The notes beneath the pieces were generated by a model that worked only from the letters and a program-made list of their open reading frames with translations, ran no database searches and was not told the DNA's origin. 64,000 nt of DNA from contig NZ_JOJE01000009.1 in the NCBI RefSeq assembly GCF_000720255.1, forward strand, positions 1-64,000, written 5' to 3'. The position numbers and the translations under genes are program-made. Source of the stretch: Streptomyces griseus subsp. griseus (GTDB taxonomy: Bacteria; Actinomycetota; Actinomycetes; Streptomycetales; Streptomycetaceae). The stretch's first letter is position 1; each line of letters starts with the position of its first letter. Shown piece by piece: positions 1 through 19,546 of the stretch.

Positions 1-47
1 GCCCCCTCGCGGAACTCCGGCTCGAACTTCCGTCGCTTCTCCGCCAT
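1..47 (-). mobile_element. IS3-family transposase OrfA, N-terminal fragment (runs off window)
   Basis: Reading leftwards from an ATG at 47, the first 15 codons give MAEKRRKFEPEFREG, the typical opening of the small helix-turn-helix OrfA of IS3-family elements. The rest lies outside the window. Its terminal inverted repeat should fall between about 50 and 130, but I could not fix the exact end. The element sits just where the drmB-like reading frame loses its 5' end, which suggests that it interrupts that gene. The call rests on only 15 residues. Confidence 0.6.
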
Positions 48-226
48 GACTCCCAACTTCCCCTGCAGTCACGGTCTCTACGCTACGAGGGGAGGGACAC
101 ACGTGTGGTGCATCGGGTGAGCCGTACCTACCGCGATGCAGGGCGCACAACGCCGTCGCTGTCCGCCTTCCTGGCACGGCGACGGCACGCGAGCTCCGCA
201 TCTTCTGTCCCCAGTGCAATCGGCAG

Positions 227-1423
227 TTGACGCCTGGCGGCTTCCCCTTCCAGTTCTGCAACTGCGGAGACGGTGGCATGTCGTTCACCGTCCATCGAGC
301 GGCTGTTGTCTTCTCGCCGCACTTCGCCGTACTCGTGAACCCCCCGGACCCCACCGAGGCGGCACGCCTACGTGCTGGCGGCGGAGGGGCTCGTGCGCTT
401 GAGTGGGTCCTCAACGGGATGACATCGAACGACCCAGCAGCTGGGAGACAGACCGTCGCCGGGCTCGTCGAAACTCTTCGCCTAGCGAACCTGTCCGAAG
501 AGACCGCGCAACGAATGGCTCAGGAAGCCGTCATGCGTGGAGAGGTCGACGCCGGACATGGTGGAGCCGAAATTGTCTTGCCCGACAACACTCGTGACAA
601 GGTGCACGAGGAAGCGTTGAGCCTCGCCTCGGCCGTCAATGGCGGCCGGATCAGGGTCAACGACATGGTCGCCGGTACGACCCCACCGTTGCGGACCCTG
701 TACGAGGGCGCGTACGGGAACTCAATGCGACAGGCGCAACTTGAGGGGGTTGAGCTGCTCGCCAACTTCCCCGTGGCAACACTGGCATTCGGGTACACCC
801 GAGGGGACCTCTCGCCCGGAGCTGCTCGCCTGGTTCCGTTCCGCGAACGCGGACGCATCCGCGCCTATGGGTCGCTGTCCCGTACCGAAGCCCTGCTCTT
901 CCGTCTGGACCCGCTCAGCGTATATCGGCACCTCGCGAGTCGGGGGCACGCACTGCCTGATGTGAAGGATGCCCGAGCGGCGCGTATCGCTCTGCTGCAA
1001 ACGATGGAGCTTCCGTACCCGACGCAGGAGCGGTTCCAACCGCTGGGCGGTGACCTGCTCCGGCTCGTGCACTCGTACGCCCACCGGGCGATCCGCCGGC
1101 TCGCTTCCTTCGCCGGTATCGAACGCGACGGCCTTGCCGAGTATCTCGTCCCGCACCACCTCAGCTTCGTCGTCTACGCGGCATCGCGGGGTGACTTCGT
1201 GCTCGGTGGACTCCAATCCGTCTTTGAGTCCTCTCTGCACCGCTTCCTCGCTGACGTAGTCGAGGGCGAGTCGCGCTGCGCGTTGGACCCTGGTTGCCGT
1301 AGCGGCGGTGGCGCCTGCATGGGCTGTCTCCACCTTGGTGAGCCGTCCTGCCGCTGGTTCAATCGGTTTCTCGATCGCTCAGAGCTCTTCGGCGCTCATG
1401 GCTTCCTCAACACTGGGACGTGA
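227..1423 (+). CDS. drmB: DrmB-like (DUF1998-type) protein, 5'-truncated
   Basis: The frame is open back to a stop at 47-49, but no ATG or GTG occurs before the TTG at 227, so 227 is only a nominal start. The upstream frame encodes a zinc-ribbon-like stretch (CRAH, then CPQC, then CNC at about 135-250) that belongs to the protein. The C-terminus carries a cysteine cluster (CALDPGC, ACMGC, SC) followed by LDRSELFG, as in DUF1998 proteins such as DISARM DrmB. About 400-450 residues remain, shorter than intact DrmB, and the missing N-terminus lies towards the IS3 fragment. drmC follows after 4 bases. In DISARM, DrmB partners the DrmA helicase, which is not in view. Likely non-functional unless an undetected start exists. 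Confidence 0.6.
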   Translation: MTPGGFPFQFCNCGDGGMSFTVHRAAVVFSPHFAVLVNPPDPTEAARLRAGGGGARALEWVLNGMTSNDPAAGRQTVAGLVETLRLANLSEETAQRMAQEAVMRGEVDAGHGGAEIVLPDNTRDKVHEEALSLASAVNGGRIRVNDMVAGTTPPLRTLYEGAYGNSMRQAQLEGVELLANFPVATLAFGYTRGDLSPGAARLVPFRERGRIRAYGSLSRTEALLFRLDPLSVYRHLASRGHALPDVKDARAARIALLQTMELPYPTQERFQPLGGDLLRLVHSYAHRAIRRLASFAGIERDGLAEYLVPHHLSFVVYAASRGDFVLGGLQSVFESSLHRFLADVVEGESRCALDPGCRSGGGACMGCLHLGEPSCRWFNRFLDRSELFGAHGFLNTGT

Positions 1424-1427
1424 CGCT

Positions 1428-2162
1428 GTGGATCACGCCGAACTAGTGGGTGGTGTACTCGTCGACTGCCCTGACCCCCGAGCCTCCGCCGGCGACCTCA
1501 CCCGGTTCATGATGGCGACGCAACTGGACCGCGCCGCAGCCATTCGAGCCGGGCTGGAGCCGGAACTTGTGGAGGTACTACGCAGCCGGTACGCCAACGA
1601 TCGGGAGCGGATCCCCGCGTTGTGCCAGGAGGCTGCGGCTTGGGTGCTGGGACGGAGGTCGATAGCCAGCGCCGAGCCGTGGGAGCTCGTGGCATCCCTA
1701 CCGAGAACAGACGTGCCGGAGGGCTTGCGCCGAACAACGGGGGAAACTCTCATCCAACTCGTCGTCCAGGCGACACAGACCCTCCGCCTCGCGGCTCCCT
1801 TTATCGACCAGCCCGGTCTTTCGTTCCTGGCCGAGGCACTCGCAGCTGCCACGACACGAGGCGTGCGACTTGAGATCCTTCTCCCAACCCGTTCGACCAG
1901 CGCAGATGACGCCATTGACGACCTAACTACGACCATCTCAGCCGAGGGACGCTCGACAAACTTCTTGGTCTCGAGACTTCGAGAGGATGCGCCCTGGGCA
2001 CACCTTAAGGTGCTCACTTCGGACTCCAAAGCAGCCTATATCGGCAGCGCCAACGTCACAGGAGCCGGCATTGGTGGTCGCAATCTTGAGCTCGGCGTTC
2101 TAGTTCGTGGCGAGCCCGTCATGGTGGTTGAGCGCGTCCTCGACATCTATCGCAGTTCCTGA
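1428..2162 (+). CDS. drmC: DrmC-like phospholipase D-fold protein
   Basis: About 244 residues from a GTG at 1428, preceded by GGGA; an ATG at 1398 inside drmB would add 10 residues. The C-terminal part has a single HKD motif (H192-x-K194-x4-D199) followed by GSANVTGAG and a conserved NLELGVLV strand, which is the hallmark of PLD-superfamily phosphodiesterases. A short PLD protein directly after a DUF1998 protein is the drmB-drmC arrangement of DISARM phage defence. The role of DrmC in DISARM is accessory. Four bases separate it from drmB, so they are probably co-transcribed. With drmB cut and drmA absent from view, this is probably a relic. Confidence 0.7.
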   Translation: MDHAELVGGVLVDCPDPRASAGDLTRFMMATQLDRAAAIRAGLEPELVEVLRSRYANDRERIPALCQEAAAWVLGRRSIASAEPWELVASLPRTDVPEGLRRTTGETLIQLVVQATQTLRLAAPFIDQPGLSFLAEALAAATTRGVRLEILLPTRSTSADDAIDDLTTTISAEGRSTNFLVSRLREDAPWAHLKVLTSDSKAAYIGSANVTGAGIGGRNLELGVLVRGEPVMVVERVLDIYRSS

Positions 2163-2347
2163 CTGGTCCGCGGCAGGGCCTCTAAGCTCGTCCAGGGGCC
2201 ATAGGACAGCCGCGAGCGGTTCGGCACGCAACCGCTGGAGTGCGCCTCGGGGCCTCGCGGGAGCGTCGTCCTCACTTGGGGGCCAGCGCCCGTCGCGTTG
2301 ACTCTACCTTGAAACCACTGTGCACTCCGTTCCGACACCCGCAGGAA

Positions 2348-3439
2348 TCAGAAAAGCCGCCCGGAAATCTCGGATGGCGATCCGTCGCTCTTTACGACTG
2401 CCGCAACGTGCTGCTTCAGGGTTTCCCCGATCACTTCACCCAATCGCACGGGAACGGCGTTACCGATCAGCCGGCCGAGCCGATTGAATCGAACCACCTC
2501 TCCTTCCTCAAGAAACTTGTAGGAACGCGGAAATGTTTGAATCATCGCTGCTTCCCTCAAGGAAATAGCGCGGTCTTGTGTCGGATGACCGAAACGGCCG
2601 TTACCGTAGCCGAAACATTGGGTCGTCATTGTCGGAGCTGGCATATCCCACTCCATACGCCCGTAGACACTGGGATATGTTGCACCCGTGGTCTTCCGAT
2701 GGCACGCAGCAAGGAGCTCAGGGTCCCAGTCGCGCCACGTGCCGCCTGGCTTGGATGCCCTTATCCGCCGCATGTTCATTTCACTGAGAGAGCAGGCGGT
2801 ATGCAATGGATCGCTCGGGTGCTGCTCACCGGCACGAATCTCAGGAAGATCGGCGATCTCATCTCGAACCGTACGGGTCGGTGAAGTCATCCGATCAATT
2901 CGGTCAAGACCAATATCCCCTAGTTTCGACGCCAAGAGAACCAAGCGCTTCCTCGATTGGGGAACACCAATCTTGGTGCACTCTACAACCGACCAATGAA
3001 CGTGATAGCCTTTCAGGCTTTTCAAAAAACGCTTAAAGACACTGTGCGAGGCAAGTTGAGCAACATTTTCCATGGTCACAAGGTCCGGTTGCAGGTCAGC
3101 AACCAGATCTCCGAAACTGGAGACGAGTTGCCAGTCCTTGCCGCGCTTCTTGCTACGGCCGCTCTGGCTGTAAGATGAGAAAGGCTGGCAAGGAGCGCAG
3201 CCAGCGAGCAGGGAGAAATCTCCCTCACTCAAATGAGGCTCAACTTCTGCAGATGTCAACTCATTGACGTCTCGCTCAATGAACTTCGCGTCGTTATTGG
3301 CCTCATACGGATACCGACATGACGGATCGAGGTCGACTCCAGCGGTGACATTAACGCCGCTCCGAACCAGACCGTGCGTGAGCCCGCCGACCCCACAGAA
3401 AAGATCGACTGCAGAGATAGTCGGGATCGTACTGGTCAT
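2348..3439 (-). CDS. DNA (cytosine-5)-methyltransferase
   Basis: A 363-residue C5-MTase that methylates cytosine in DNA with S-adenosylmethionine. Visible motifs are I (DLFCGVGGLTHG, 12-23), IV with the catalytic Cys84 (GCAPCQPF), VI (ENV, 124-126), VIII (QSRKR, 161-165) and X (GNAVPVRLGEVIG) near the C-terminus. The target-recognition region between VIII and X is short. It is the last gene of a three-gene minus-strand operon and overlaps the HEPN gene by 4 bases (ATGA), so it is translationally coupled. GC is clearly lower than in the flanking chromosome. It converges on drmC; class 2 DISARM also uses a C5-MTase (DrmMII), but coupling to the HEPN gene argues that it belongs to the operon. 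Protection of host DNA is inferred. Confidence 0.93.
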   Translation of the reverse strand: MTSTIPTISAVDLFCGVGGLTHGLVRSGVNVTAGVDLDPSCRYPYEANNDAKFIERDVNELTSAEVEPHLSEGDFSLLAGCAPCQPFSSYSQSGRSKKRGKDWQLVSSFGDLVADLQPDLVTMENVAQLASHSVFKRFLKSLKGYHVHWSVVECTKIGVPQSRKRLVLLASKLGDIGLDRIDRMTSPTRTVRDEIADLPEIRAGEQHPSDPLHTACSLSEMNMRRIRASKPGGTWRDWDPELLAACHRKTTGATYPSVYGRMEWDMPAPTMTTQCFGYGNGRFGHPTQDRAISLREAAMIQTFPRSYKFLEEGEVVRFNRLGRLIGNAVPVRLGEVIGETLKQHVAAVVKSDGSPSEISGRLF

Positions 3440-4188
3440 GGTGCACCGCCGTTTGGCCTGAAATTCGGCCGAAGAAAATTATGAGATTCAATATGTCGAA
3501 TGAAGCACTCTATCACTTCGCGCAAGTAACTTTCGACACTAGACGCCATCCGCCGCAGCTCGTCGACCGCCACGCCGTCCGCACAGTCGACAAACGAGAT
3601 GGACCCGTGAGCCAGGCCGTTCCTTCGATCCTTGACGAGCTTCATGGGCCCCAGGTCATCCCGCATGTTGGCCTTGACGCCTCGTCGAGTCTGCTCCGTG
3701 ACGGAGATCACGCACCCAAGGCGCTTGCCCATGGCGAAGATTGCCTCGTCGTCCCAATTGCCCCCGCCGCCGGCTTCCACACTGAACCTGCCCACAGGAA
3801 GCTGTTGGACGATGTGCTCACTGAGCTGCATCGCGTGCTTCAAGCGATGCTCAGGAGTCATATCGGTGTGAGTACGCGCTATGGAACGGACCCATTCACG
3901 CTGAAGTTCGTCACTCAGTTGATGCGGCTTCCACTGGCCAGCCTGAGCCGCAGCTTGAGTTATTGCATCAACGCACCGAGAGACCGTCGCTTCGACGAGG
4001 TTGTACAGCTGCAGATACAGGCTGGAGTACAGGATTTTTTGTTGCATAGCCGAGATCTTGTACTCAGTTCCGTGAAGGCGAGGAGCTCCATCCTGTGCCG
4101 CCTTTTCAAGCTCCTCAAGTAAATCTACGTAAGCGTCGACCTCTTCGAATCTCTCTTCAAAGAAGGTGAGAAGATCGACAGAATTCAT
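3436..4188 (-). CDS. HEPN-family (MAE_28990-like) predicted ribonuclease
   Basis: 250 residues, largely helical, with an acidic N-terminal helix bundle. The motif KDRRNGLAHG holds R189-x4-H194, the signature of catalytically active HEPN RNases. The N-terminal part (LYSSLYLQLYNLVEATVSR, about 53-71) and the overall layout resemble the MAE_28990/MAE_18760 HEPN group that neighbours DUF262 genes; I recall that association and did not search for it. The gene overlaps the DUF262 gene upstream and the methyltransferase downstream by 4 bases each. Cleavage of RNA to block phage growth is inferred; the substrate is unknown. Confidence 0.72.
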   Translation of the reverse strand: MNSVDLLTFFEERFEEVDAYVDLLEELEKAAQDGAPRLHGTEYKISAMQQKILYSSLYLQLYNLVEATVSRCVDAITQAAAQAGQWKPHQLSDELQREWVRSIARTHTDMTPEHRLKHAMQLSEHIVQQLPVGRFSVEAGGGGNWDDEAIFAMGKRLGCVISVTEQTRRGVKANMRDDLGPMKLVKDRRNGLAHGSISFVDCADGVAVDELRRMASSVESYLREVIECFIRHIESHNFLRPNFRPNGGAP

Positions 4189-5258
4189 TCTTGCACCAGC
4201 CGATCACGCACAAAGTCGATGCGACCTTCAAGACGCGCACGAGCATTCGCACCATCAGATCCAGTGACGTCTAGGAAATCTTCACCCTCCAGCCAGGGGA
4301 GAACGTTCAGCTGCCCGCGACTCATATTACGAAGCTGAGGTTTGTCCTGGATAGCTCGATAGGAGCCAATTGCGATTGCTTCAAATCGAGCCCTCGGAGT
4401 AGCCCTACCTGTGGGCGTCTTGCGGAAGCCGTACGGGAAGATCTGTTCCACAAAATCAAGAGTTTCCTGGAATCGCCGCCTATATTCATCCGAGAGCGTC
4501 GGCCTCTCCGAAAAGACGACATTCTTCTTCTTGACATAGTCGAAGATGAAGTCGGCGGGTCGATCCCTGTATCCGGTGAGACCGTCGCCATACGCAAAGA
4601 ACCGAGTCACCAGTTCTTCGTATCCACGCTCATCTTTCCTCTTGGCGCTCATTGGGGCAAGCCTCGCGAACCGGGCATCCGACGCGAGTTCTATCACTAG
4701 CCTCATAAACGGTCCAGCCAAAGCGCCACGGCGGATCTCAGCGGTATTGGCATTCTTACTACCGGTATTGATGCGCTCAAACATGTCCAACCGGGCTGCT
4801 TCATCAGCGTGTTCATTGAGAACGATGCCACGGATTGACCTGTTGCGAATCTTCCGCTGGCGGGACTCCGGAAGATCGTCGAAGGTGAAGTATGAAACGT
4901 TGCTGAGCTGGTCAAGCTCTCCCAGCCGGAGGCCCTTGTGCAGGAACTCTTCAATGGTCCTCAGACGCTGGGAGCCATCGACGATCTCCAACTTGCCGTC
5001 CTCCATCTCCCAGAAGAAGATAAAGGGGATGGGTAGGCCCATAATCAGAGATTCAATGAACTTTGACTTACGCTCAGGCTCCCAAGTGAATTCACGTTGA
5101 TAGTCGGGAACGACATATTCGCCGCTTTTCATCTTGTTTGCGAGGATTTCAACCGAGTATTCGGTGATGTAGAAATCGATACGCTTGGATTGGTCAGCGA
5201 TCTGTTGCTCGGCAGCATCGCGTTCGTCGGGCGTGATCATGATGGCTTCGCTCGACAT
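4185..5258 (-). CDS. DUF262 (ParB/GmrS-fold) domain protein
   Basis: 357 residues from the ATG at 5258, chosen because GGGGAGG lies about 8 bases before it; an ATG at 5342 is in frame but has no ribosome site. The N-terminal DUF262 domain shows QREFTW (54-59), DGSQR (94-98) and FERINTGS (160-167), the conserved ParB-like nucleotide-binding/nuclease motifs also found in GmrSD-type modification-dependent enzymes. The C-terminal part has no DUF1524 HNH motif that I can see, so a nuclease activity may lie elsewhere. It is the first gene of the DUF262-HEPN-methyltransferase operon; ATGA at 4185-4188 couples it to the HEPN gene. Likely sensor or NTP-using component (inference). Confidence 0.85.
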   Translation of the reverse strand: MSSEAIMITPDERDAAEQQIADQSKRIDFYITEYSVEILANKMKSGEYVVPDYQREFTWEPERKSKFIESLIMGLPIPFIFFWEMEDGKLEIVDGSQRLRTIEEFLHKGLRLGELDQLSNVSYFTFDDLPESRQRKIRNRSIRGIVLNEHADEAARLDMFERINTGSKNANTAEIRRGALAGPFMRLVIELASDARFARLAPMSAKRKDERGYEELVTRFFAYGDGLTGYRDRPADFIFDYVKKKNVVFSERPTLSDEYRRRFQETLDFVEQIFPYGFRKTPTGRATPRARFEAIAIGSYRAIQDKPQLRNMSRGQLNVLPWLEGEDFLDVTGSDGANARARLEGRIDFVRDRLVQE

Positions 5259-5805
5259 CGCTTGGTGCCTCCCCGGTGACGTCTTCTCGCGCTGGTTGGA
5301 CAACCTGTTGGCGCTAGTTGATGATGTCACAGGCTGGCTCACCAGGCTGTATAGCCCTCAAGTTGGCTTCAACGCAACGGGCTGACACCTCACCCGACTT
5401 GGCTCATGCAGCCGAACTCCCCTTCAGGGCGGCCACTGCTGCGCCAGCCCGGGGACGGACTCGGAAATAGGGAGGCCTGCTGCCTCTGCCCCAGAACGGC
5501 CCGATGCACGCCTGCTTGCTATGATCGAGCCCCTTACGACTGATCCACGTCCATCGTGAGCGTAGCCGTCACGCTGCTGTTGCACGTGTCGATGCACAAG
5601 CCACTGCCGCCTTCACGACTGCCGCGGGGACATGGCATCCGCCAACCACCCTTCCGCCGGCACTCTGGATGGGGTGCTACCGCGTGGCTCACCGTGACGG
5701 CCAGCCGGACCAGCGCACGGCGGGCGCGGACTATTCGTGGACGGATGGGCTTCCCGACGAGCGTCAAGGCATTCTGACCAGCTGAGACCTGTGAGACGCA
5801 CGGGC
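5259..5805. other. Gene-free end of the island, upstream of the DUF262 operon
   Basis: No convincing coding sequence on either strand. It must hold the promoter of the DUF262 operon. No integrase is recognisable; if the element encoded one, it lies outside the window. Confidence 0.5.
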
Positions 5806-5849
5806 CCTCCGGAGCCGTGTGCGCAGGTTCGAATCCTGCCGGGGGCACC
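5806..5849 (+). other. 3' half of tRNA-Arg(CCG): island attachment site
   Basis: The segment starts in an anticodon loop CTCCGGA (anticodon CCG, 5807-5813), followed by a 3' anticodon stem GCCGT, a short variable loop, T stem GCAGG (5823-5827), loop TTCGAAT, CCTGC (5835-5839), acceptor strand CGGGGGC (5840-5846) and ACC. The partner 5' half, which should begin GCCCCCG, is absent, and the anticodon stem fails to pair upstream of 5806. This is the remnant left when an element integrates into the 3' end of a tRNA gene. The side left of 5806 is therefore element and the right side is host flank. Confidence 0.75.
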
Positions 5850-5866
5850 TTGATTCAGGTGCCCGA

Positions 5867-5903
5867 AGACCCCGCCATCAGCGCTTTCGCTGAGGCGGGG
5901 TCT
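5867..5903 (+). terminator. Terminator hairpin downstream of the tRNA fragment
   Basis: AGACCCCGCC (5867-5876) pairs with GGCGGGGTCT (5894-5903), and an inner CAGCG/CGCTG stem extends it. It lies 17 bases after the tRNA 3' end, as expected for the original tRNA transcript's terminator. Confidence 0.8.
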
Positions 5904-5926
5904 TCGCGTATGTGCAGGCGTGTGCC
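5878..5926 (+). repeat. Direct repeat, copy 1 (tRNA-Arg terminator flank)
   Basis: 49 bases covering the right part of the tRNA terminator and its downstream flank. It matches 8011-8059 at 45 of 49 positions in the same orientation. Confidence 0.85.
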
Positions 5927-6215
5927 ACTCGGAGCGGCTGTCTGTCAGGGGCTATTGACTATGCGGGACCGGCCGCGAGGCAGGAATCCGCAGGTCAGGC
6001 CCCGGCAACGCCGAGACCCCCGGACCGAAGTTCAGGGGCCATCATGCCGCAGGTGCGCGTGTCGGAGGTGTGTCGGGTTAAGCGCCCGTCGTCGCCGGTC
6101 TCGTCCTCCTGGTCGTCTTCCTCGCCGAGGAGTTCGGCGATCCGACAGTTGGCGACGTCCTGCAGACCGTCGAGACACGTGGCAGCAGTGCCCGCAGTCC
6201 TGACCCGACAGTGAG
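5927..6215. other. Gene-poor stretch
   Basis: No supported gene. A plus-strand frame around 6085-6215 encodes a hydrophobic run (VVAGLVLLVVFLAEEFGDP) directly after an in-frame stop and without a start. It could be the decayed end of a membrane protein gene, but the evidence is weak. Confidence 0.35.
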
Positions 6216-6245
6216 GAGGTGGCCCACGGCGCTGCGGGCCACCTC
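6216..6245. terminator. Strong inverted repeat after the secreted-protein gene
   Basis: GAGGTGGCCC (6216-6225) and GGGCCACCTC (6236-6245) are perfect 10-base arms with a 10-base loop, 19 bases beyond the stop of the minus-strand gene. A likely terminator. Confidence 0.8.
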
Positions 6246-6264
6246 TCCCCGCCCGGCGCCGCCG

Positions 6265-7614
6265 TCACATGTTGGAGAACGGCACGGAGAACAACACTCT
6301 TTCGGGCACCGCCGGTTCACTCCACTGTCCGGCGGAGTTCGCGGCCCATTCGGTTTGTGACCACAGCTGCTGGGTGCTCCACCACAGCGACATGCCCTCG
6401 CTGTGCTGGGCCCAGCATGCGTTCGCCTGGACTTGTCCGCTACAGGTGTGCGACGTGGCGGAGCCGGCGGTGCTCATCTTCCACATGATGCCGTGCACCC
6501 CTGGCCCCCACAGGGCGTCGGCGGCGTAGTACTTGTCGTTGTTCGCGAGCACCGCCTGCAACCCCGCCGCGTTGTTGGTCACGTAGCTCTTGGTCGGGTC
6601 GGCATAGGCCTTCCCCCCGGCTGTGACGAGCGGCATGGCCCCGCCGGGAGCGGCGAGGTCGTAGCGGAAGATCCGGGCGGGCTTGGCGGTACCGCCAGTG
6701 CTGCGCCATTCGTTGGCGACGATGCTGTACGGGCTGGTGCTGCGGTCCATGGTGAGCCCGTCGAAGCAGGGGTAGCCGTCGATCGATGTGCCGTTGCAAG
6801 CGCCGCCCAGGCTGTAGGAACCGATCGCGGGCATGATGTATTGGTAGCCGCGTGCCGAGTAGCCGCCGCTGACCTTGCCGATCTCGTGGGAGTTCACGGT
6901 CGCTTGCAGGATGTGCTTGAAGTCGAAGACGAACAGCGCGTTGTCGCTGTCGTCGCCGCGGGACGCGGTGACCAGGAGCTTGTCGCCGTACCAGACCATG
7001 CCGCCGAGGTGTGAGCCCAGTTTGTCGAAGTCGTCGCCGCCTTCGGTGGGCACGACCAGCAGCACCCACCGGTACTTGAAGGCGCCGGGGGTGTTGGCGT
7101 CGATGAACGCCACCCGCGCCAGGCCTTTGTCATCGGCGGTGGAGCTCGGGAGGTCGTCGTTGTTGGTCCACCCCGAGAGGATCACCTTGTTCGTGCCCCA
7201 CATGCCGTCGTCGTCGGCGTCGCCGGACGAGGTCAGTCCCTGGGGTACGAACTGTTGGGTGAGGGCGTCCCCGGTGTCCCAGCAGTAGGCCGATGACGCC
7301 GAAGGGTTGATCGGCCGCGCGGCCGACTCGGTGCTCGTGCATCCGGAACTGGAGCTGCTGTACATGGGGTGGTTGGCGGACTTCAGGACCGTGTCCACCC
7401 CGACATTGGGCAGATGCCCGTCCAGCGTGCTGATCGTCGTGGGGGACACACGGTGCTCGGTCAGCTCCAGCTTGCTCAGCGCTGCAGTGCTCCCGTTGTC
7501 GAGCAGCTTCCCGGGTGTGGGCACCGGGGTCTCGGCTTGCGCCGGTGTTCCCCACGCCAGCACGGCCATGGCGGCCGCCGCCAACACTCCTGCGACCTTA
7601 CGTCTCTTCCTCAT
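6265..7614 (-). CDS. Secreted protein of unknown function
   Basis: 449 residues from the ATG at 7614, chosen because GGGGAG lies about 6 bases before it. The start MRKRRK, a hydrophobic core and an A-Q-A cleavage site near residue 27 form a Sec signal peptide. The mature part is rich in Gly, Ser, Thr, Asp and Trp with repeated aromatic/acidic stretches (for example DADDDGMWG, TASRGDDSDNALFVFDF), which suggests an extracellular beta-rich, perhaps propeller-like fold. Several Cys could form disulfides. I do not recognise a catalytic motif. It stands alone, followed by a strong hairpin, in the segment between the two copies of the tRNA-flank repeat. Confidence 0.85.
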   Translation of the reverse strand: MRKRRKVAGVLAAAAMAVLAWGTPAQAETPVPTPGKLLDNGSTAALSKLELTEHRVSPTTISTLDGHLPNVGVDTVLKSANHPMYSSSSSGCTSTESAARPINPSASSAYCWDTGDALTQQFVPQGLTSSGDADDDGMWGTNKVILSGWTNNDDLPSSTADDKGLARVAFIDANTPGAFKYRWVLLVVPTEGGDDFDKLGSHLGGMVWYGDKLLVTASRGDDSDNALFVFDFKHILQATVNSHEIGKVSGGYSARGYQYIMPAIGSYSLGGACNGTSIDGYPCFDGLTMDRSTSPYSIVANEWRSTGGTAKPARIFRYDLAAPGGAMPLVTAGGKAYADPTKSYVTNNAAGLQAVLANNDKYYAADALWGPGVHGIMWKMSTAGSATSHTCSGQVQANACWAQHSEGMSLWWSTQQLWSQTEWAANSAGQWSEPAVPERVLFSVPFSNM

Positions 7615-7875
7615 CCCGCTCCCCGTTCGACAACAAGTGGAACATCGGCCCAAATGCTGTCATGGGCACGTGAAGTAGGCGGAGTTCACGGAATTCTTTG
7701 AGGATCCATTTGCCAAGCCGCGTGGGAGGTGGCCCCGTACGCCGCCGAGCAGACGGGAATTGCCAGTGCTTTGACCGCGTAGGTTCGCCGGGTGGATGGC
7801 CGTGGCGGTTGGATGTGGGTTGACGTCCGTGCCGACCGCTGGAGGCGTGGTGGCCGAGCCTGTCCGTGTGCGCAG

Positions 7876-8010
7876 ATGACCGACCAGGAGGGGCAGCGGC
7901 TGCAGCAGATCGTGCGCCGGGGCAGCACGAGTTCGGTGCGTTACCGGCGCGCGATGATGCTGCTGGCCTCAGCCGGCGGGAACCGGGTGCCGGTGATCGC
8001 CCGGCTGCCA
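7876..8010 (+). pseudogene. IS630-family transposase, truncated N-terminal fragment
   Basis: From the ATG at 7876 the frame reads MTDQEGQRLQQIVRRGS, then VRYRRAMMLLASAGG and VPVIARL. This is the N-terminal helix-turn-helix region of IS630-type transposases. The similarity stops at about 8010, exactly where the second copy of the tRNA-flank repeat begins, and the DDE catalytic region is missing. The 260 bases upstream (7615-7875) contain no gene that I can support. Confidence 0.75.
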
Positions 8011-8059
8011 CCAGCGCTTTCGCTGAGACGGGGTCTTCGCGTATGTGCAAACGTGTGCC
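8011..8059 (+). repeat. Direct repeat, copy 2 (tRNA-Arg flank, without the tRNA)
   Basis: 45 of 49 bases match 5878-5926. The left arm of the terminator and the tRNA half are missing; in their place is the IS630 fragment. The copies bracket about 2.1 kb that contains the secreted-protein gene. Confidence 0.85.
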
Positions 8060-8210
8060 GCTGTATGGCGGGGTCTGCGGCGAGAGACCGCGGGGATCTT
8101 GGAGCGTTGCCACAGGTGAGTCAGGCCTTTTCGCGGTTGGCACGTCTACTGAGACCGTCACCCGCCTGAGAGGAAACTGGCGTGTCAGTGGTGTGCGCTT
8201 GGATGAGGGC

Positions 8211-8876
8211 GTGACCGTTCAAGACGTTGCCGGGCAGATGCCCGAGATTGCCGTCCTTCGTGAGCACTGCCGTTCCCTGGCCGTCCTGGAGGCGGCCCTG
8301 AGCCCTGAGTGGGCGGGCCGCTATCACTCCTTCACCTGCCGCTGGTCGGAGGGCGCGTCGATGGCCTCCATGCAGAACGGATCGGGCGACGAGTACTCAA
8401 TCGTCTTCACTGCCGGCGGCGCCTACATCCGTGGGTTCGATCACGAATCACCCATGAGCCCCTACGCGGAGGACGGGCTTTGGCCCGGAGTGCTCGATGA
8501 GGTTCCCGACGTCTTCCGACCCTGGGTTGAGGAGGTCGCGTTCTCGGATGAGGACGGGATGCCCCTCGTCACTGCGTGCATGTGGCGAGAGACCGGAGAC
8601 GACGGCTGGAGAACAGGGACGATCGACTTCCCCGAGGAGACAACGGAAGACCCGGACGGCGCCGCTTACCTCTTCCAGTTGCTGGTGGATCGCTCGCCGG
8701 AGGCGTTTCAGGAGTGGGCCCAGGACTACTACGAGGTCCCTGTCGACCTGGAGGCGGTTCGTCACGTTTTCTCATCGCGCCCCCTGACCGAGCGAGTGGT
8801 CAGTGCATTGAACCCGGAGATCACCCTGCCCGATCTCGCGCGGGACATCGCGGAGGCCGGCTATCCGCTGAGCTGA
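8211..8876 (+). CDS. Hypothetical acidic protein
   Basis: The frame is open far upstream, but that part is the IS630/repeat sequence in another reading. I take the GTG at 8211 (221 residues); GTG 8193 is also possible. The GTG at 8211 overlaps by GTGA the stop of a possible ten-codon leader (GTG 8182 to TGA 8214) that has AGAGGAAA before it, so translation may be coupled. The protein is soluble, very acidic, with many aromatic residues and no recognised motif. Codon use is typical of Streptomyces. Function unknown. Confidence 0.7.
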   Translation: MTVQDVAGQMPEIAVLREHCRSLAVLEAALSPEWAGRYHSFTCRWSEGASMASMQNGSGDEYSIVFTAGGAYIRGFDHESPMSPYAEDGLWPGVLDEVPDVFRPWVEEVAFSDEDGMPLVTACMWRETGDDGWRTGTIDFPEETTEDPDGAAYLFQLLVDRSPEAFQEWAQDYYEVPVDLEAVRHVFSSRPLTERVVSALNPEITLPDLARDIAEAGYPLS

Positions 8877-8925
8877 GACATCCGGCAACGACAAGGCCGG
8901 TCTGACGACGAGGATGCCGACGATG

Positions 8926-9180
8926 TCAGTCCGAGCGCGGGCTGGCTGACCGTACTCGACCGGGCCGAAGGATCCGGATCCGGGAGCCGCGGCACACGCG
9001 GCACCGGTTCGCGGTCAGCGGTGAAGGGACCTTGAGGCTGTGGACGTAGTAGTCCGCGTGTACGCGGCCCTGGCCATCGACCGAGTGCCGGATCTCGTAC
9101 GCGCCCTCCCAGGCGTGTCCGCAGCGCAGACACACGAACGAATAGGCTTCATGTATCGACTCGGCCTTCATCGTCATCAC
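8926..9180 (-). CDS. Small zinc-ribbon protein
   Basis: 84 residues; ATG codons at 9180, 9177 and 9171 are all possible starts, with AAGGGCG just upstream. Two CxxC pairs, CLRCGHAW (about 17-24) and CRVCRG (about 60-65), would bind one zinc ion. Between them is a short strand-rich segment (YEIRHSVDGQGRVHADYYV). The C-terminus is basic. It is divergent from the MarR gene, and the palindrome at 9240-9254 lies between them, so it may share that control. Function unknown. Confidence 0.75.
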   Translation of the reverse strand: MMTMKAESIHEAYSFVCLRCGHAWEGAYEIRHSVDGQGRVHADYYVHSLKVPSPLTANRCRVCRGSRIRILRPGRVRSASPRSD

Positions 9181-9239
9181 GCCCTTGTCCCGGAATCGTC
9201 GCGCCCGCGCGGCTCCAGACTTGTCGCACTCAGCTTAAC

Positions 9240-9254
9240 ATTGCATTCTGCAAT
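9240..9254. promoter_or_regulatory. Palindrome ATTGCA-TTC-TGCAAT, putative MarR operator 1
   Basis: Perfect 6-base arms with a 3-base spacer, 22 bases before the MarR start codon. The same core recurs at 9957 and 10101. Confidence 0.75.
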
Positions 9255-9276
9255 GATCGTAGCGGCGGAGTAGTCC

Positions 9277-9927
9277 GTGAGCGGAGAAGACCGTGAAAGA
9301 GATGGAACGGACACGATGACGCGGCAGGAACCCGAGCGGCTCGAGCCCGCGGCCGAGCCGGCCTCCCCCGCTGAACTCGACCAGGAGGCCGAGGAGGTCA
9401 CGCTCTCCGTCATGGCGGCGTCCAGGCTGCTCGTGGCGGTCTCCGCCCGCGCGCTCGCGTCCACCGACGACACCTTGACCCTGCCCCAGCTGCGGGCGCT
9501 GGTCGTGCTGGACACCTGCGGACCCGTCAAGCTCGCCGCCATGGCCGCGACGCTGGGGGTCAACCCCTCGACGGCCCTGCGCATGGTGGAACGCCTGGAG
9601 TCCGCGGGCCACATGGACCGCAAGACCAATCCCGACAACCGGCGCGAGGTCATCCTCCGCCTCACGCCCTCCGGGCGAGACCTGGTGGGGCGCGTCCTCG
9701 CCCACCGGCGTACCGAGATCCGCGCACTCGTACAACGGCTGCCCGCCGAAGCGCGCGCGGCTCTCGTTCCCGCCCTGAGGGCGCTGACCGAGGCGGCGGA
9801 CGAAATGGCCGTGGACCCCTTCGACGAGGTTCGCCGCGTGCGGGGCCTCATCGACGATCCGCTCAACCCGGCCCCGCCGGATTCGCCCCAGGGAGGCCGC
9901 CGTCGCCCCAAAGGCGGAACGGTCTGA
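9277..9927 (+). CDS. MarR-family transcriptional regulator
   Basis: 216 residues from the GTG at 9277 (CGGAG upstream); an ATG at 9316 would remove 13. After a Pro/Glu-rich lead, residues of about 45-160 form the winged-helix MarR fold: LPQLRALVVL, the recognition region LGVNPSTALRMVERLESAGHM, and the wing with DNRREVILRLTPSG. The C-terminal tail is basic and disordered. It lies upstream of, and co-directional with, the FAD/Fe-S oxidoreductase gene. Three near-identical palindromes, one before this gene and two before the next, suggest that it represses itself and the downstream enzymes, with release by a small acid or phenolic ligand (inference). Confidence 0.9.
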   Translation: MSGEDRERDGTDTMTRQEPERLEPAAEPASPAELDQEAEEVTLSVMAASRLLVAVSARALASTDDTLTLPQLRALVVLDTCGPVKLAAMAATLGVNPSTALRMVERLESAGHMDRKTNPDNRREVILRLTPSGRDLVGRVLAHRRTEIRALVQRLPAEARAALVPALRALTEAADEMAVDPFDEVRRVRGLIDDPLNPAPPDSPQGGRRRPKGGTV

Positions 9928-9956
9928 CCCCGACCGTCGACGCATCCGCGCATTTC

Positions 9957-9969
9957 TTGCATTATGCAC
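9957..9969. promoter_or_regulatory. Putative MarR operator 2
   Basis: TTGCA-TTA-TGCAC, one base off the TTGCA-N3-TGCAA consensus of operators 1 and 3. It lies 30 bases after the MarR stop and 240 bases before the oxidoreductase start. Confidence 0.65.
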
Positions 9970-10100
9970 CATTCGAGAGACCATGGAAGGGCGGGCAAGC
10001 GGGCCTCAGCCCACAGGCTCTCAGCCCTCAGCCGCGTATGCGTCTGAGCAGCTCAAGCGCATCTGAGCCCCGCTCCGGAAATCCACCGGAAGACGCGCTC

Positions 10101-10113
10101 TTGCACTCTGCAA
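10101..10113. promoter_or_regulatory. Putative MarR operator 3
   Basis: TTGCA-CTC-TGCAA, perfect arms, about 95 bases before the start of the FAD/Fe-S oxidoreductase gene. The 9928-10206 gap holds no gene, only operators 2 and 3. Confidence 0.75.
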
Positions 10114-10206
10114 TGTTGGGTACTCGGGCGCAGCGGCGGCAGGAGAAGGAGCCGACGAGGCCGGCCGTCGCGGACTGTCAACGGCTCGGGAAGGCGGATC
10201 GCTCTG

Positions 10207-13200
10207 ATGACTCACCCCCCTTTCGACGCCTCCGGGACGGACGCCGCCGAGTTGGAGGCGGCGCTGCGTGAGGCCGTGGATGGCGAGGTCCGGTTCGACG
10301 CGGGCAGCAGGGGGGCCTACTCCACCGACGGCTCGAACTACCGTCAGGTGCCGATCGGCGTCGTGGTGCCCCGTTCGGTGGAGGCCGGTGCGCGTGCGGT
10401 GCAGGTCTGCGCCCGTTTCGGTGCCCCTGTCCTGTCGCGAGGCGGTGGCACCAGTCTCGCCGGCCAGTCGACGAACACGGCCGTGGTGATCGACTGGAGC
10501 AAGTACTGCCACGGGCTGGTCTCCGTCGATCCCGACGCACGGACCTGTGTGGTCGAGCCGGGAATCGTGCTGGACGTCCTCAACCGTCGGCTGTCCGACC
10601 ACGGGCTGCAGTTCGGGCCGAAGCCCTCGACGCACAGCCACTGCGCCCTGGGCGGCATGATCGGCAACAACTCGTGCGGCGCGTCCGCGCAGGCGTACGG
10701 CAAGACCGTCGACAATGTGCGCCGCCTGGAGGTGCTCACCTACGACGGCACGCGGATGTGGGTGGGGCCGACTTCTGAGGCCGAGCGGGCGCGGATCACC
10801 GCGGAGGGCGGCCGACGCGCCGAGCTCTACGACGGCCTGGACCGTATCGTCGCCGAGTACCTCGCGGACATCCGGCGCGGTTACCCGAAGATCCCGCGCC
10901 GGGTCTCCGGCTACAACCTCGACTCGCTGCTGCCCGAGAACGGCTTCGACGTGGCCAGGGCGCTGGTCGGCAGCGAGGGAACGCTGGTGACCGTACTGCA
11001 CGCCGAGCTCGACCTGGTGCCGGTGCCGGCGTACCAGTCGCTGCTGGTCCTCGGCTACGACGACATCTGCGCGGCCGCCGACGACGTCACCCACCTGCTG
11101 CGGCACTGCGAACCCGGCCAGCTGGAGGCGCTGGACGGGCGCATGGCCCAGCTGATGCGCGAGGAGGGCGCCTACCTGGAGTCCCTGGACGCGCTGCCGG
11201 AGGGCGACAGCTGGTTGATGCTCCAGTTCGCCGGCGACAGTCAGGAGGAGGTCGACGAGCAGGCGCACGCGCTGCTGCGCGCCGTCGGCCGGACCGAGAA
11301 GGACGCCGACGTCGCGTTCTCCGACGACCCCGAGCGTGAGCAGCGGATGCTCAAGGCGCGCGAGGCCGGGCTCGGTGTCACCGCCCGCCCGCCGGACGAC
11401 CGGGAGACGTGGGAGGGCTGGGAGGACTCGGCCGTACCGCCCGAGCGGCTCGGTGACTATCTGCGGGACCTGAAGAAGCTGTTCGCGGAGTTCGGCTACG
11501 ACCACCCGTCCCTGTACGGCCACTTCGGGCAGGGCTGCGTCCACACCCGGATCCCGTTCGGGCTCAAGACCGCCGAGGGCGTGGCCGGCTTCCGCCGGTT
11601 CGTGGAGCGGGCCGCCGACCTCGTCGCCTCCTACGGCGGTTCCCTGTCGGGCGAGCACGGTGACGGCCAGTCCCGAGGCGAACTGCTCACCCGTATGTTC
11701 GGCGAGCGGCTCGTGACCGCGTTCGGGGAACTGAAGTCGCTGTTCGACCCCGGCGACCGGATGAACCCGGGGAAGATCGTCCACCCCAACCCCGTCGACG
11801 GGCAGCTTCGCCTCGGCCCGACCTGGCGCCCGGAGACCCCGGCGACGCACTTCGGCTTCCCTGAGGACGACCACTCCTTCAACCGGGCGGTGATGCGCTG
11901 CGTCGGCATCGGCAACTGCCGCGGTCACTCCGGCGGCGTGATGTGCCCCTCCTACCGGGCCACCATGGAGGAGGAACACTCCACACGCGGCCGGGCCCGG
12001 CTGCTGTTCGAGATGCTCGACGGCCACGCCGACTCGGCCGTCACGGACGGCTGGCGTTCCACCGAGGTGCGCGACGCGCTGGATCTGTGTCTGGCCTGCA
12101 AGGGCTGCAAGTCCGACTGCCCGACCGGGGTCGACATGGCCACCCTCAAGGCGGAGTTCCTCTCGCACCACTACGAGGGCCGGCTGCGCCCCGCCGCCCA
12201 CTACTCCATGGGCTGGCTCCCCGTGTGGGCGCGTCTGTCCCGTATCGCGCCGGGGCTGGTCAACGGCCTCCTGCACGCGCCCGGTCTGGCGCGGGCGGGC
12301 AAGCGCCTGGCCGGCGTGGACGAGGCCCGCTCGGCGCCCGTGTTCGCCGATCAGTCCTTCCTGCAGTGGTGGCGGGCCCGCGGCGTCGAGGAGCCCGACC
12401 CGGCCGACCCGCGCACCGTCGTGCTGTGGCCGGACACCTTCAGCACCTACTTCCACCCCTCGATCGCCGTCTCGGCGGTACGCGTCCTGGAGGACGCCGG
12501 TTTCCGCGTCGCCGTACCCACCCGGCCGGTGTGCTGCGGACTGACCTGGATCTCCACCGGGCAGCTGCCACTGGCGCAGAAGGTGCTGCGCCGCACCCTC
12601 GACGTGCTGCGCCCGTACCTGGAGGCGGGCACGCCGGTCATCGGCCTCGAACCGTCCTGCACCGCCGTCTTCCGCTCCGACGCCCCCGAGCTGATGCCCG
12701 CCGACCAGGACGTGCAGCGGCTGGCCGGGCAGGTCCGCACCTTCGCCGAGCACCTCGTCCACCACGCTCCCGAGGGCTGGCGGCCCCCGCGCCTCGGCCG
12801 GCGGGCGACCGTGCAGACCCACTGCCACCAGCACGCCATCATGAAGTTCGACGCCGACCGCGAGCTGATGCGCCGCGCCCACCTCGATGCCGACGTCCTC
12901 GACGAGGGCTGCTGCGGCCTGGCCGGCAACTTCGGCTTCGAACGCGGCCACCACGAGGTCTCCATGGCCGTCGCCGAACAGGGCGTCCTGCCCGCCGTCC
13001 AGGCCGCCGCCCCGGACAGCCTCGTCCTCGCCGACGGCTTCAGCTGCCGTACGCAGATCGAGCAGGGCGGCACCGGACGGCGGGCGCTGCACCTGGCCGA
13101 GGTCCTGGCCCTCGGCCTGGAGGGCACGCTCCCGGCCGAGCACCCGGAACGCCTGGCCGCACGCCCCGACCGGCCCTCCCGCGCGGCCCGCTGGGCGGCC

Positions 13201-13287
13201 GTGGCGGGTGCGGCCGCCCTGACGGCGACCGTCGCGACGGCGGTCGGCCGCGCGGCCCTGCGCTCGGTGCCCCGCCCCCGTCAGTAG
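10207..13287 (+). CDS. FAD-binding and Fe-S oxidoreductase (GlcD-GlpC fusion type)
   Basis: 1026 residues. The N-terminal half is an FAD-linked oxidase of the D-lactate/D-2-hydroxyacid dehydrogenase (VAO) type: RGGGTSLAGQS (78-88), GGMIGNNSCGA (149-159), then FAD-oxidase C-terminal features. The second half has ferredoxin-like clusters (CVGIGNC...CPS about 565-582; CLACKGCKSDCP about 628-639) and two CCG repeats (CCGLTW about 776; CCGLAGNFG about 902). This layout oxidises a 2-hydroxyacid and passes electrons through FeS to quinone. The last 30 residues are hydrophobic and may anchor the protein. The substrate cannot be read from sequence. First enzyme of a three-gene set behind MarR operators 2 and 3. 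Confidence 0.93.
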   Translation: MTHPPFDASGTDAAELEAALREAVDGEVRFDAGSRGAYSTDGSNYRQVPIGVVVPRSVEAGARAVQVCARFGAPVLSRGGGTSLAGQSTNTAVVIDWSKYCHGLVSVDPDARTCVVEPGIVLDVLNRRLSDHGLQFGPKPSTHSHCALGGMIGNNSCGASAQAYGKTVDNVRRLEVLTYDGTRMWVGPTSEAERARITAEGGRRAELYDGLDRIVAEYLADIRRGYPKIPRRVSGYNLDSLLPENGFDVARALVGSEGTLVTVLHAELDLVPVPAYQSLLVLGYDDICAAADDVTHLLRHCEPGQLEALDGRMAQLMREEGAYLESLDALPEGDSWLMLQFAGDSQEEVDEQAHALLRAVGRTEKDADVAFSDDPEREQRMLKAREAGLGVTARPPDDRETWEGWEDSAVPPERLGDYLRDLKKLFAEFGYDHPSLYGHFGQGCVHTRIPFGLKTAEGVAGFRRFVERAADLVASYGGSLSGEHGDGQSRGELLTRMFGERLVTAFGELKSLFDPGDRMNPGKIVHPNPVDGQLRLGPTWRPETPATHFGFPEDDHSFNRAVMRCVGIGNCRGHSGGVMCPSYRATMEEEHSTRGRARLLFEMLDGHADSAVTDGWRSTEVRDALDLCLACKGCKSDCPTGVDMATLKAEFLSHHYEGRLRPAAHYSMGWLPVWARLSRIAPGLVNGLLHAPGLARAGKRLAGVDEARSAPVFADQSFLQWWRARGVEEPDPADPRTVVLWPDTFSTYFHPSIAVSAVRVLEDAGFRVAVPTRPVCCGLTWISTGQLPLAQKVLRRTLDVLRPYLEAGTPVIGLEPSCTAVFRSDAPELMPADQDVQRLAGQVRTFAEHLVHHAPEGWRPPRLGRRATVQTHCHQHAIMKFDADRELMRRAHLDADVLDEGCCGLAGNFGFERGHHEVSMAVAEQGVLPAVQAAAPDSLVLADGFSCRTQIEQGGTGRRALHLAEVLALGLEGTLPAEHPERLAARPDRPSRAARWAAVAGAAALTATVATAVGRAALRSVPRPRQ

Positions 13288-13400
13288 TCCGCCCCGCCCC
13301 CGTCCGTAGTCCGCCCCGCGTAGTCCGCCTCGCCCATGGCCCGCCCCGCACTCACCCGCCCCGCACGCACGGTCCCCACACTCACCCGCCCCGCACGCAC
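13284..13400. repeat. Imperfect tandem GC-rich repeats between two genes
   Basis: GTAGTCCGCC-type units start at 13284, 13306 and 13320. An exact 22-base unit lies at 13349-13370 and 13379-13400 (period 30). They fill the gap before the thiamine-diphosphate enzyme gene. No hairpin with a U-tract is visible. Confidence 0.75.
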
Positions 13401-13420
13401 TACCGGAAAGGTCTTCGAAC

Positions 13421-15244: not shown

Positions 15245-16350
15245 GCGACGCTCCGGTCGTGGCAGGGGTGGACACCGCCGTGTTCACCGTGCCCACGGAC
15301 TTCCCCGAGGCGGACGGCACGCTCGGCTGGGACAGCACCACCGTCGTCCTGGCCACCGTCCGCTGCGGGGACGTCACGGGCCTCGGCTACACCTACGCGC
15401 CCGCCGCCACGGCACGCGTCATCGAGGACCTGCTCGCCGACGTGGTCACCGGCTTGCCGGCGCTCGACGTGCCGCGGATGAACGAGGCCATGCACCGTGC
15501 GGTGCGCAACGCCGGACTGCCGGGCGTCGCCGCGCAGGCGATCGCGGCCGTGGACATCGCGCTGTGGGACCTGAAGGCCCGCCTGCTCGGCCTGCCTCTG
15601 GTCCACCTGCTGGGCGCGGCCCGCGACGAGGTGCCCGTTTACGGCAGCGGTGGCTTCACCACCTACGACGACGACCGGCAGGAGCGTCAACTGCGCGGCT
15701 GGGTCGAGGAAGAGGGCATTCCCCGCGTCAAGATCAAGATCGCGGAGTCGTGGGGGAGCGAGGAGGAACGCGACCGGCGGCGCGTCGCCAGGGCCCGCGC
15801 CGTCGTCGGCGACACCGTCGCCCTGTACGTGGACGCCAACGGCGGCTACGGCGCCAAGCAGGCCGTGCGCGTGGGCGGGGTGCTCGCCGACGAGGGTGTG
15901 ACCTGGTTCGAGGAGCCCGTCTCCTCCGACCACCTGACCACCCTCGCCGCGATCCGCGCCCAGGTCGGCCTAGACGTGGCGGCCGGAGAGTACGGCTACA
16001 CCCTGCCCTACTTCGAGCACATGCTCGCCGCCGGAGCCGTGGACTGCCTCCAGGCCGATGTCACGCGCTGCGGCGGCATCACCGTCTGGCTGCGCGCCGC
16101 CGCCCTCGCCCAGGCCCGCGGCATCGAGATCTCCGGACACTGCGCCCCGCACGCCCATGCGCACGCCGCAGCCGCCGTGCCCAACCTGCGGCACCTGGAG
16201 TGGTTCCACGACCATGTCCGCATCGAACGCATCCTGTTCGACGGTGTCCTCTCCCCCGCCGGTGGCGCCCTCACCCCGGGCGCCGACGGCGCACCCGGCC
16301 TCGGCCTCGCGCTCAACACCGAGCGGGCTGGGGCCTACCGGGTCGGCTGA
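15241..16350 (+). CDS. Enolase-superfamily (mandelate racemase/muconate lactonizing) enzyme
   Basis: 369 residues from the GTG at 15241, translationally coupled to the previous gene. The N-terminal capping domain is followed by a TIM barrel with the acid-base Lys pair in KIKIAE (about 163), metal ligands in YVDANGGY (D about 197), WFEEP (E about 222) and AGEYGY (E about 249), and a conserved His in GHCAPH. The family abstracts the proton alpha to a carboxylate, giving racemisation, cycloisomerisation or sugar-acid dehydration. With the two upstream enzymes it may process a hydroxy- or sugar acid; the exact substrate is not determinable. Confidence 0.88.
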   Translation: MSDAPVVAGVDTAVFTVPTDFPEADGTLGWDSTTVVLATVRCGDVTGLGYTYAPAATARVIEDLLADVVTGLPALDVPRMNEAMHRAVRNAGLPGVAAQAIAAVDIALWDLKARLLGLPLVHLLGAARDEVPVYGSGGFTTYDDDRQERQLRGWVEEEGIPRVKIKIAESWGSEEERDRRRVARARAVVGDTVALYVDANGGYGAKQAVRVGGVLADEGVTWFEEPVSSDHLTTLAAIRAQVGLDVAAGEYGYTLPYFEHMLAAGAVDCLQADVTRCGGITVWLRAAALAQARGIEISGHCAPHAHAHAAAAVPNLRHLEWFHDHVRIERILFDGVLSPAGGALTPGADGAPGLGLALNTERAGAYRVG

Positions 16351-16380
16351 CCGTCACGCGCGTCATGCCTTCGGCCGACA

Positions 16381-16406
16381 GCGGACCCCGCTCCTCCGCG
16401 GTCCGC
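16381..16406. terminator. Inverted repeat between convergent genes
   Basis: GCGGACC (16381-16387) pairs with GGTCCGC (16400-16406). It is placed 30 bases after the enolase-superfamily stop. Confidence 0.6.
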
Positions 16407-16510
16407 GAGAACGTCATGGTCCTGTGCTTCGCCGAACCGACCTCGGGCAGCTCGGGCAGCGGTGTCGCGGCGGCCTTCCCGGGACCGCCGGAAAGACGAG
16501 GACGAGACCG

Positions 16511-17074: not shown

Positions 17075-17177
17075 GACGGGGCACTCCTTTCGGTGCACGC
17101 CATACGTCCCACCCGAGTGCCAAGGCTTCACGGCCCCGGCACGTCACCACCCGGACGGCCGAGCACCCCGGGCCACG

Positions 17178-17741: not shown

Positions 17742-17814
17742 CGGATTCCTTTCACTCCACGCCGGAGCGTGAACTCCGGCAGACGAACGACATCGACGGT
17801 TTCGAAGCCGTGCC

Positions 17815-19538: not shown

Positions 19539-19546
19539 TCGTCGGC

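Follow-up and report, generated by a model that had tools for sequence, protein, structure and literature searches.

A conserved DUF262-HEPN-C5-methyltransferase gene set in Streptomyces griseus, a candidate restriction-modification-like system with a predicted RNA-cleaving effector

The type IV enzymes GmrSD and BrxU, as well as SspE and DndI, possess an NTPase/sensor half with a ParB-like fold and a DG-x-QR motif. The same half is found in the DUF262 protein of a three-gene operon on the minus strand at 2348-5258 of the stretch analysed here, the first 64,000 nucleotides of contig NZ_JOJE01000009.1 of Streptomyces griseus subsp. griseus (the window). These enzymes differ from this operon, which contains no DUF1524/HNH domain and has a HEPN protein in trans and a C5-cytosine DNA methyltransferase (MTase). 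A C5 DNA MTase (PF00145, with conserved motifs and predicted activity) is the component shared with type II restriction-modification (R-M). PD-T4-2 (Vassallo et al. 2022) is given as DUF262 plus HEPN in review tables (PMC10952713), and its deletion raises T4 plaquing (PMC9519451). The available descriptions of PD-T4-2 name no methyltransferase, while the window operon has one. The window DUF262 protein matched the PADLOC model PD-T4-2_A at 4.9e-30, and for the HEPN protein no PADLOC PD-T4-2 model matched at E <= 0.1, in a library which presumably includes a PD-T4-2_B model. The best PADLOC score of the DUF262 protein was with NsnA of Menshen (1.5e-55), which was the sole Nsn model to match in a scan of five window proteins; we take Menshen to be NsnABC and the library to include NsnB and NsnC models. 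In Menshen the DUF262 protein is associated with a nuclease predicted to be of the OLD type (PMC10952713). The operon could not be assigned to PD-T4-2 or to Menshen, as the DUF262 part alone matches.

The gene set itself was listed in 2013 by Anantharaman et al. (PMC3710099), where one table line places a MAE_28990 HEPN in an operon with ParB nuclease and DNA methylase genes; the HEPN family (PF18737) and the three kinds of gene are those of the window operon. In the available text the entry is a single line which gives no mechanism for the set and does not mention a shared MTase. The novelty claimed for the operon in an earlier note on this DNA, made from its letters alone, stands in part. 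No experimental account of the three-gene set was found in the literature searched, with supplementary files and most subscription papers outside the search, but the combination had already been in print. It is also undescribed in the available parts of papers on DefensePredictor, BREX and GmrSD phylogenomics, and unnamed in those of Vassallo 2022 and Rousset 2022.

The operon has the order DUF262, HEPN, C5-MTase. The DUF262/GmrSD_N protein (4185-5258, 357 aa) is a predicted ParB-fold NTPase and sensor of DNA or its modification, with a mostly helical second half. The MAE_28990-family HEPN protein (3436-4188, 250 aa) contains an intact R189-x4-H194 motif and is a predicted ribonuclease (RNase) effector. 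The C5-MTase (2348-3439, 363 aa) carries PCQ, ENV and QxRxR motifs and is the predicted writer of a self-mark. The three open reading frames (ORFs) were recovered where the earlier note had placed them, with the overlaps it described: both junctions are ATGA on the coding strand, at bases 4185-4188 and 3436-3439. GGAGG is situated nine bases 5' of the DUF262 start (5258), and a scan for sigma-70 promoters and terminators gave signals at chance level only. The low-GC surroundings were likewise borne out, with 54.7% GC in the operon against 69.8% in the whole window.

The DUF262 protein matched Pfam GmrSD_N (PF03235) with 97 bits (2e-27; cut-off 33.2). Its D94, G95, Q97 and R98 are each kept in at least 97% of 64 full three-gene sets (triads); these 64 served for residue conservation and gene correlation, 10 of 74 rows being excluded as incomplete. 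BrxU was the top match of the structural model, with SspE and DndI as structural neighbours, and the model aligned to the BrxU portion which precedes the C-terminal nuclease of that protein. A Pfam scan (E <= 1) detected no DUF1524/HNH in the five window proteins, and no HNH or PD-(D/E)xK domain was found by Pfam in the three operon proteins, so that the noted lack of a visible HNH nuclease holds by domain scan and structural model. Among the best 120 of 4,709 homologues only PF03235 was found, in proteins of 350-386 aa. The PADLOC model REase_II gave a weak match (3.8e-11), and judged from its sequence the protein could conceivably nick DNA. In its model the protein resembles the sensor part of GmrSD-type enzymes (BrxU, SspE, DndI), minus the HNH nuclease.

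The HEPN protein matched HEPN_MAE_28990 (PF18737) with 80.1 bits (3.4e-22; cut-off 26.8). No exception to R189 or H194 was seen among 60 aligned homologues, and each is shared by at least 97% of the 64 triads, which agrees with the intact Rx4H motif first noticed. The profile search collected 1,058 relatives at E <= 0.001, and PF18737 was present in 120 of 120 among the matches listed. PADLOC 2.0.0 had no good model for the protein (best E 0.019), a PDB sequence search with the HEPN profile returned no HEPN, and Foldseek with the model gave no match at E <= 0.001. A second look with VIA-align ranked HEPN toxins first, with two designed helical filaments equal in score. Because of this ambiguity in the structural comparison, the assignment rests mainly on Pfam and the motif. 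The protein is likely the RNase effector of the operon.

The MTase is complete, as had been claimed, with 184.1 bits to DNA_methylase (PF00145; 5.8e-54, cut-off 22) and C84 of the PCQ motif in at least 97% of the 64 triads. PADLOC placed it with DrmMII (4.4e-89) and MTase_II (9.6e-82), and files its relatives separately as DrmMII, DruM and MTase_II. Vsr genes are present in 12 of 74 triad loci, duplicates included, and fit real cytosine methylation; some of them stand apart from the triad (L027, L093).

The conservation of the set was analysed by a HEPN-anchored genome scan. Two peptide patterns from the closest relatives were used, so that the 56 loci obtained sample this HEPN subfamily. Near-duplicates were kept in the locus counts and 5 were removed for trees; split genes were counted as present (DUF262 in L057, L065 and L069, HEPN in L067, MTase in L065 and L075). 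DUF262 adjoins HEPN in 54 of the 56 loci, the other two starting inside the HEPN gene at a contig end. The C5-MTase is present in 55, the remaining contig stopping inside HEPN; in L056 it lies 1.4 kb away from HEPN. Genome G064 has a DUF262 match with one stop on a different contig from its HEPN. Viral contigs gave the same picture: HEPN-anchored loci possess DUF262 in 11/11 and the MTase in 10/11, and DUF262-anchored loci (the same 11 and 6 new ones) possess HEPN in 17/17 and the C5-MTase in 16/17, both misses being locus ends. A viral-contig search with a single HEPN sequence gave no match. The tree labels represent nine phyla, namely Actinomycetota, Pseudomonadota, Cyanobacteriota, Bacteroidota, Planctomycetota, Chloroflexota, Acidobacteriota, Myxococcota and Lentisphaerota.

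Three arrangements of the triad were distinguished, with the MTase downstream in most loci, upstream in L040, L055, L061 and L070, and convergent in L071-L079. Plasmid and phage relatives whose HEPN has 26% identity retain all three genes, and HEPN and DUF262 form the most tightly correlated pair. In the host genus the HEPN subfamily was found in 3 of 392 genomes, that of the window included, and in E. coli a P2-like prophage triad occurs in 7 of 5,426 genomes at megablast sensitivity. Plasmids, prophages and an integrative element all carry the triad, and some loci lie near other defence genes. On the Rhodococcus plasmid pDJL2 (L092) its neighbours are a recombinase, a gene with a TIR domain and a HEPN gene of the Swt1 family. 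Chance clustering of the three genes is ruled out by their conserved co-occurrence: DUF262-HEPN-C5-MTase is a conserved module. The candidate-defence reading of the earlier note was therefore not refuted by homologues occurring singly, as close relatives keep their neighbours.

Pairs lacking the methylase are also found. Among 200 genomes of the host family 10 matched PF18737, two of them below the family cut-off, and the DUF262-HEPN stretches of this family showed a C5-MTase in 0 of 9 cases (about 4-7 kb searched on each side, 2 kb at contig ends). In the DUF262 tree one dividing branch with support 100/99 separates 10 MTase-less pair rows (9 different) from 63 triad rows, and the pairs sit on long branches. 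Two of the 10 rows are the same pair entered twice (L015, L098), 3.4 kb from a triad; this second pair of Streptomyces sp. or43 (L098:14759-16590) is of the PF18735 type. A second DUF262-HEPN pair is also present in the window genome (G000:C33:4767-6645, L249), apparently on the same integrative element as the triad, and its HEPN matches best with RiboL-PSP-HEPN (PF18735), so that or43 repeats the combination of triad and PF18735-type pair. No MTase was found near this pair on the C33 side of the element. For DUF262 proteins at 28-35% identity in Actinomycetota genomes, all 10 loci checked lacked both this HEPN and this MTase to a distance of about 1.5 kb; tight coupling therefore holds for the triad subfamily and not for DUF262 at large. 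Within the triads the MTase is kept although its position shifts, which argues that DUF262-HEPN depends on it. Two loci (L230:533-1618 and L231:303-1406) show DUF262-HEPN with a different C5-MTase, about 28% identical, which keeps several signature residues of the segment 226-288.

This segment is the most conserved part of the MTase. Across 140 non-identical MTases the mean majority-residue frequency is 0.79 for residues 226-288, compared with 0.63 for 8-171 and 0.67 for 289-345. We place 226-288 between the C5-MTase motifs VIII and IX, i.e. in the target-recognition region, which in typical C5-MTases is the most variable part. A DNA motif common to the members of the subfamily is likely, judged from the conservation of 226-288 where typical enzymes vary most. 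It is made less certain by residues 172-225, which belong to the same inter-motif stretch and are the least conserved (0.55), a point against an invariant recognition domain. The consensus of 226-288 is nearly identical across five classes (99, 20, 8, 2 and 10 rows). MTases of this subfamily, with nearly the same consensus, are found in paraMORC, in DISARM with DrmD and in Druantia with DruF, whose effectors (GHKL ATPase, SNF2 helicase and DruF) are unrelated to that of the triad. In an MTase-anchored viral set, restricted to the best 80 of at least 408 confirmed relatives (51-60% identity), 45 loci had DUF262 plus HEPN, 17 paraMORC, 17 other genes and 1 HEPN only; five further non-viral loci comprised 2 paraMORC and 3 other. 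Among the others, the gene that follows encodes a DISARM helicase in L146 and L132 (PADLOC DrmD; in L146 also DrmA, scoring above DrmD), DruF in L169 and L111, and a NERD helicase in L183. Of the seven DrmD loci, five were assigned by BLAST clustering with L146, and L146 and L132 by PADLOC.

A quick MTase tree showed 12 changes of effector label, where the minimum possible is 2 and the shuffled mean 26.7; 13 of its 140 rows fell in no group. The well-supported branches alone force at least 5 changes for the DUF262-HEPN label, and on these counts MTases and effectors have apparently changed partners several times. The likeness of 226-288 across triad, paraMORC, DISARM and Druantia MTases suggests a shared self-mark, and the shared recognition segment is not described in the available parts of the literature examined. 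One tentative possibility is that a single MTase subfamily serves at least four unrelated effectors (DUF262 plus HEPN, paraMORC, DISARM/DrmD, Druantia/DruF) with the same motif, DUF262-HEPN answering unmarked DNA by cleaving RNA and not DNA. As unrelated effectors share one target, the MTase on unmethylated sites may itself be the sensor which they read. The DISARM mark is given as CCWGG in a secondary source (PMC5957327). By analogy CCWGG was considered as the mark and then set aside; the alignment with E. coli Dcm is poor in the recognition region, and such a mark would presumably be of little use against phages from Dcm+ E. coli, where the triad also occurs.

The gene set, its order and overlaps, the motif integrity and conservation, the DUF262 and HEPN-like models and the mobility are the observed basis on which the function of the operon can be considered. 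We favour, with a probability of about 0.5, an R-M-like antiviral system with an RNase in place of a DNase, which would answer unmarked DNA by RNA cleavage. The C5-MTase would mark one DNA motif in the host, and DUF262, as a GmrSD-type sensor part without the HNH nuclease, would bind nucleotide and survey DNA for this motif. Unmarked DNA from an incoming phage or plasmid may then change the state of DUF262 and activate HEPN, which would cut cellular RNA (tRNA or mRNA) and halt growth before phage release. Methylation, sensing of the mark and its direction, RNA as the target and the abortive outcome are the inferred parts of this scheme. Some observations weigh against it. GmrSD and BrxU recognise modified cytosine, SspE a phosphorothioate mark (PMC10952713); the direction of sensing is the weakest link of the mechanism, because all three read modified, marked DNA. 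One P2-like prophage lineage of E. coli carries a frameshifted MTase together with undamaged DUF262 and HEPN genes (phage P24B2 and E. coli 2015C-4136CT1; L216:813-1858 and L102:4013-5060), and in L075 the MTase is split. In another E. coli lineage (L113, E. coli 1002W03) it is intact.

An alternative reading, modelled on SspE, we consider possible but rather unlikely. DUF262 would bind the 5-methylcytosine of its partner MTase on host DNA, the bound, NTP-cycling state would restrain or prime HEPN, and loss of marked DNA during infection through degradation, MTase inhibition or dilution by phage DNA would release it. SspE, a DUF262 protein and structural neighbour, reportedly senses the phosphorothioate mark of SspABCD-SspE, which triggers its NTPase (PMC10952713), DndI is called phosphorothioation-sensing in its PDB title, and BrxU acts on m5C DNA in vitro (PMC12707154). 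The prophages with a frameshifted MTase are incompatible with such a mark-dependent brake, unless the host supplies the mark. The 2013 proposal for R-M-linked HEPN proteins offers instead a two-layer defence, where the ParB-like DUF262 would be the restriction enzyme of an R-M pair, cutting or nicking unmethylated DNA, and HEPN a PrrC-like second line when restriction fails. PMC3710099 ranks the ParB-like fold among endoDNase domains and draws the PrrC analogy. We regard this as unlikely for the present operon, since the predicted nuclease of GmrSD is the DUF1524/HNH part absent from its proteins, the listed DUF262 homologues show no domain beyond PF03235, and the model covers BrxU only up to the C-terminal nuclease.

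A toxin-antitoxin-like pair, with DUF262 as the antidote to HEPN and an MTase that does no more than stabilise the locus or guard against other restriction, would account for the tight HEPN-DUF262 correlation, for the MTase-less pairs, one of them in the window genome, and for the frameshifted-MTase lineage. It is made quite unlikely by the triad clade, which has an adjacent C5-MTase in three arrangements wherever the sequence reaches, and by the position of the MTase-less pairs across one well-supported branch, though these branches are long. Finally, and compatible with the other readings, the triad could give a methylase and an extra effector to the adjoining DrmA/DrmB/DrmC genes. Three triads have the same DrmA/DrmB variant beside them, those of the window element, of Sphingomonas (L055) and of a Roseomonas plasmid (DrmA 47-53%, DrmB 41-48% identical). 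In Roseomonas an MTase belonging to the DISARM genes themselves comes after them; it is a member of the same subfamily, and its recognition region is similar. In the window element only the MTase of the triad was seen with the DrmA-like gene (C33) and interrupted DrmB, a simple motif test on C33:1-17500 showing no other MTase in ORFs of at least 150 aa. Such a module is improbable: among the 50 triad genomes searched (50 of the 56 loci) only 3 have DrmB inside the triad locus, the drmB of the window element is interrupted at a contig junction, and an ORF with an NPPF motif upstream of the DISARM genes beside L039 (stretch L128) may, on that motif only, be their own N6-MTase. An obligate DISARM role of the triad was rejected as a general rule on the same count of DrmB.

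If the RNase-effector reading is true, the operon is an R-M-like system which meets foreign DNA with RNA destruction and is built on a GmrSD-type sensor that lost its nuclease. The MTase result is broader in reach than this RNA-effector reading. If one mark serves DUF262-HEPN, paraMORC, DISARM and Druantia, co-resident systems could spare the host from each other through one methylase, a phage carrying this one mark would escape several systems together, and the motif of all members could be predicted from the methylome of any one. The E. coli P2-like prophage triad makes the question testable in a laboratory strain.

Next to the operon, two plus-strand genes are convergent with it. The DrmB-like C-terminal part (50-1423) matched PADLOC DrmB at 5.6e-21, and the DrmC-like PLD protein (1308-2162), with an uncertain start codon, matched PLDc_2 at 9.2e-12 and PADLOC DrmC at 2e-16. 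Both miss the NCBIfam cut-offs (DrmC-like 67.8 vs 133 bits, DrmB-like 44.3 vs 240). The DISARM neighbours named by the earlier note are thus present by PADLOC, but the set is incomplete in the window: base 1 of the window is base 1 of the contig, the DISARM genes are cut off there, and the DrmA-like gene is on contig C33. The drmB gene is split at the contig junction, the window part corresponding to residues 135-569 and C33:1-594 to residues 1-132 of DrmB from Sphingomonas. A likely cause of the interruption is the insertion of a repeat, for example a transposon. A sigma-70-like protein precedes the DrmA/DrmB variant in Sphingomonas (L055:9329-10468, PADLOC MzaA-like) and in Roseomonas (L251:8197-9318).

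On the other side of the operon, a duplicated 3' part of tRNA-Arg(CCG) (5806-5849, plus strand) is a probable attachment-site copy at the edge of an integrated element. ARAGORN found no tRNA gene in window 1-20000, this piece being partial, and an intact tRNA-Arg at the C33:17522-17548 site. The 27-mer at 5823-5849 occurs twice in the genome, in the window and at C33:17522-17548, and the start at 5806 was set by comparing the two sequences. Starting at the tRNA-Arg, the genes on C33 are one of integrase type (PF00589, below the family cut-off), RepSA of the pSAM2 type, DUF2637, an FtsK/SpoIIIE translocase, a helix-turn-helix gene, the DUF262-HEPN pair, DrmA and, at the contig start, the N-terminal part of DrmB. 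The series goes on in the window contig, C9, where the C-terminal DrmB part is followed by DrmC, the triad and the tRNA copy. On the simplest reading, with the C33/C9 junction inferred, these form one pSAM2-type integrative element of at least 23 kb at tRNA-Arg, with the triad at its far end. Positions 8007-8062 hold a 56-base copy, 91% identical, of 5874-5929 just downstream of the tRNA-Arg remnant, which is possibly the scar of another integration.

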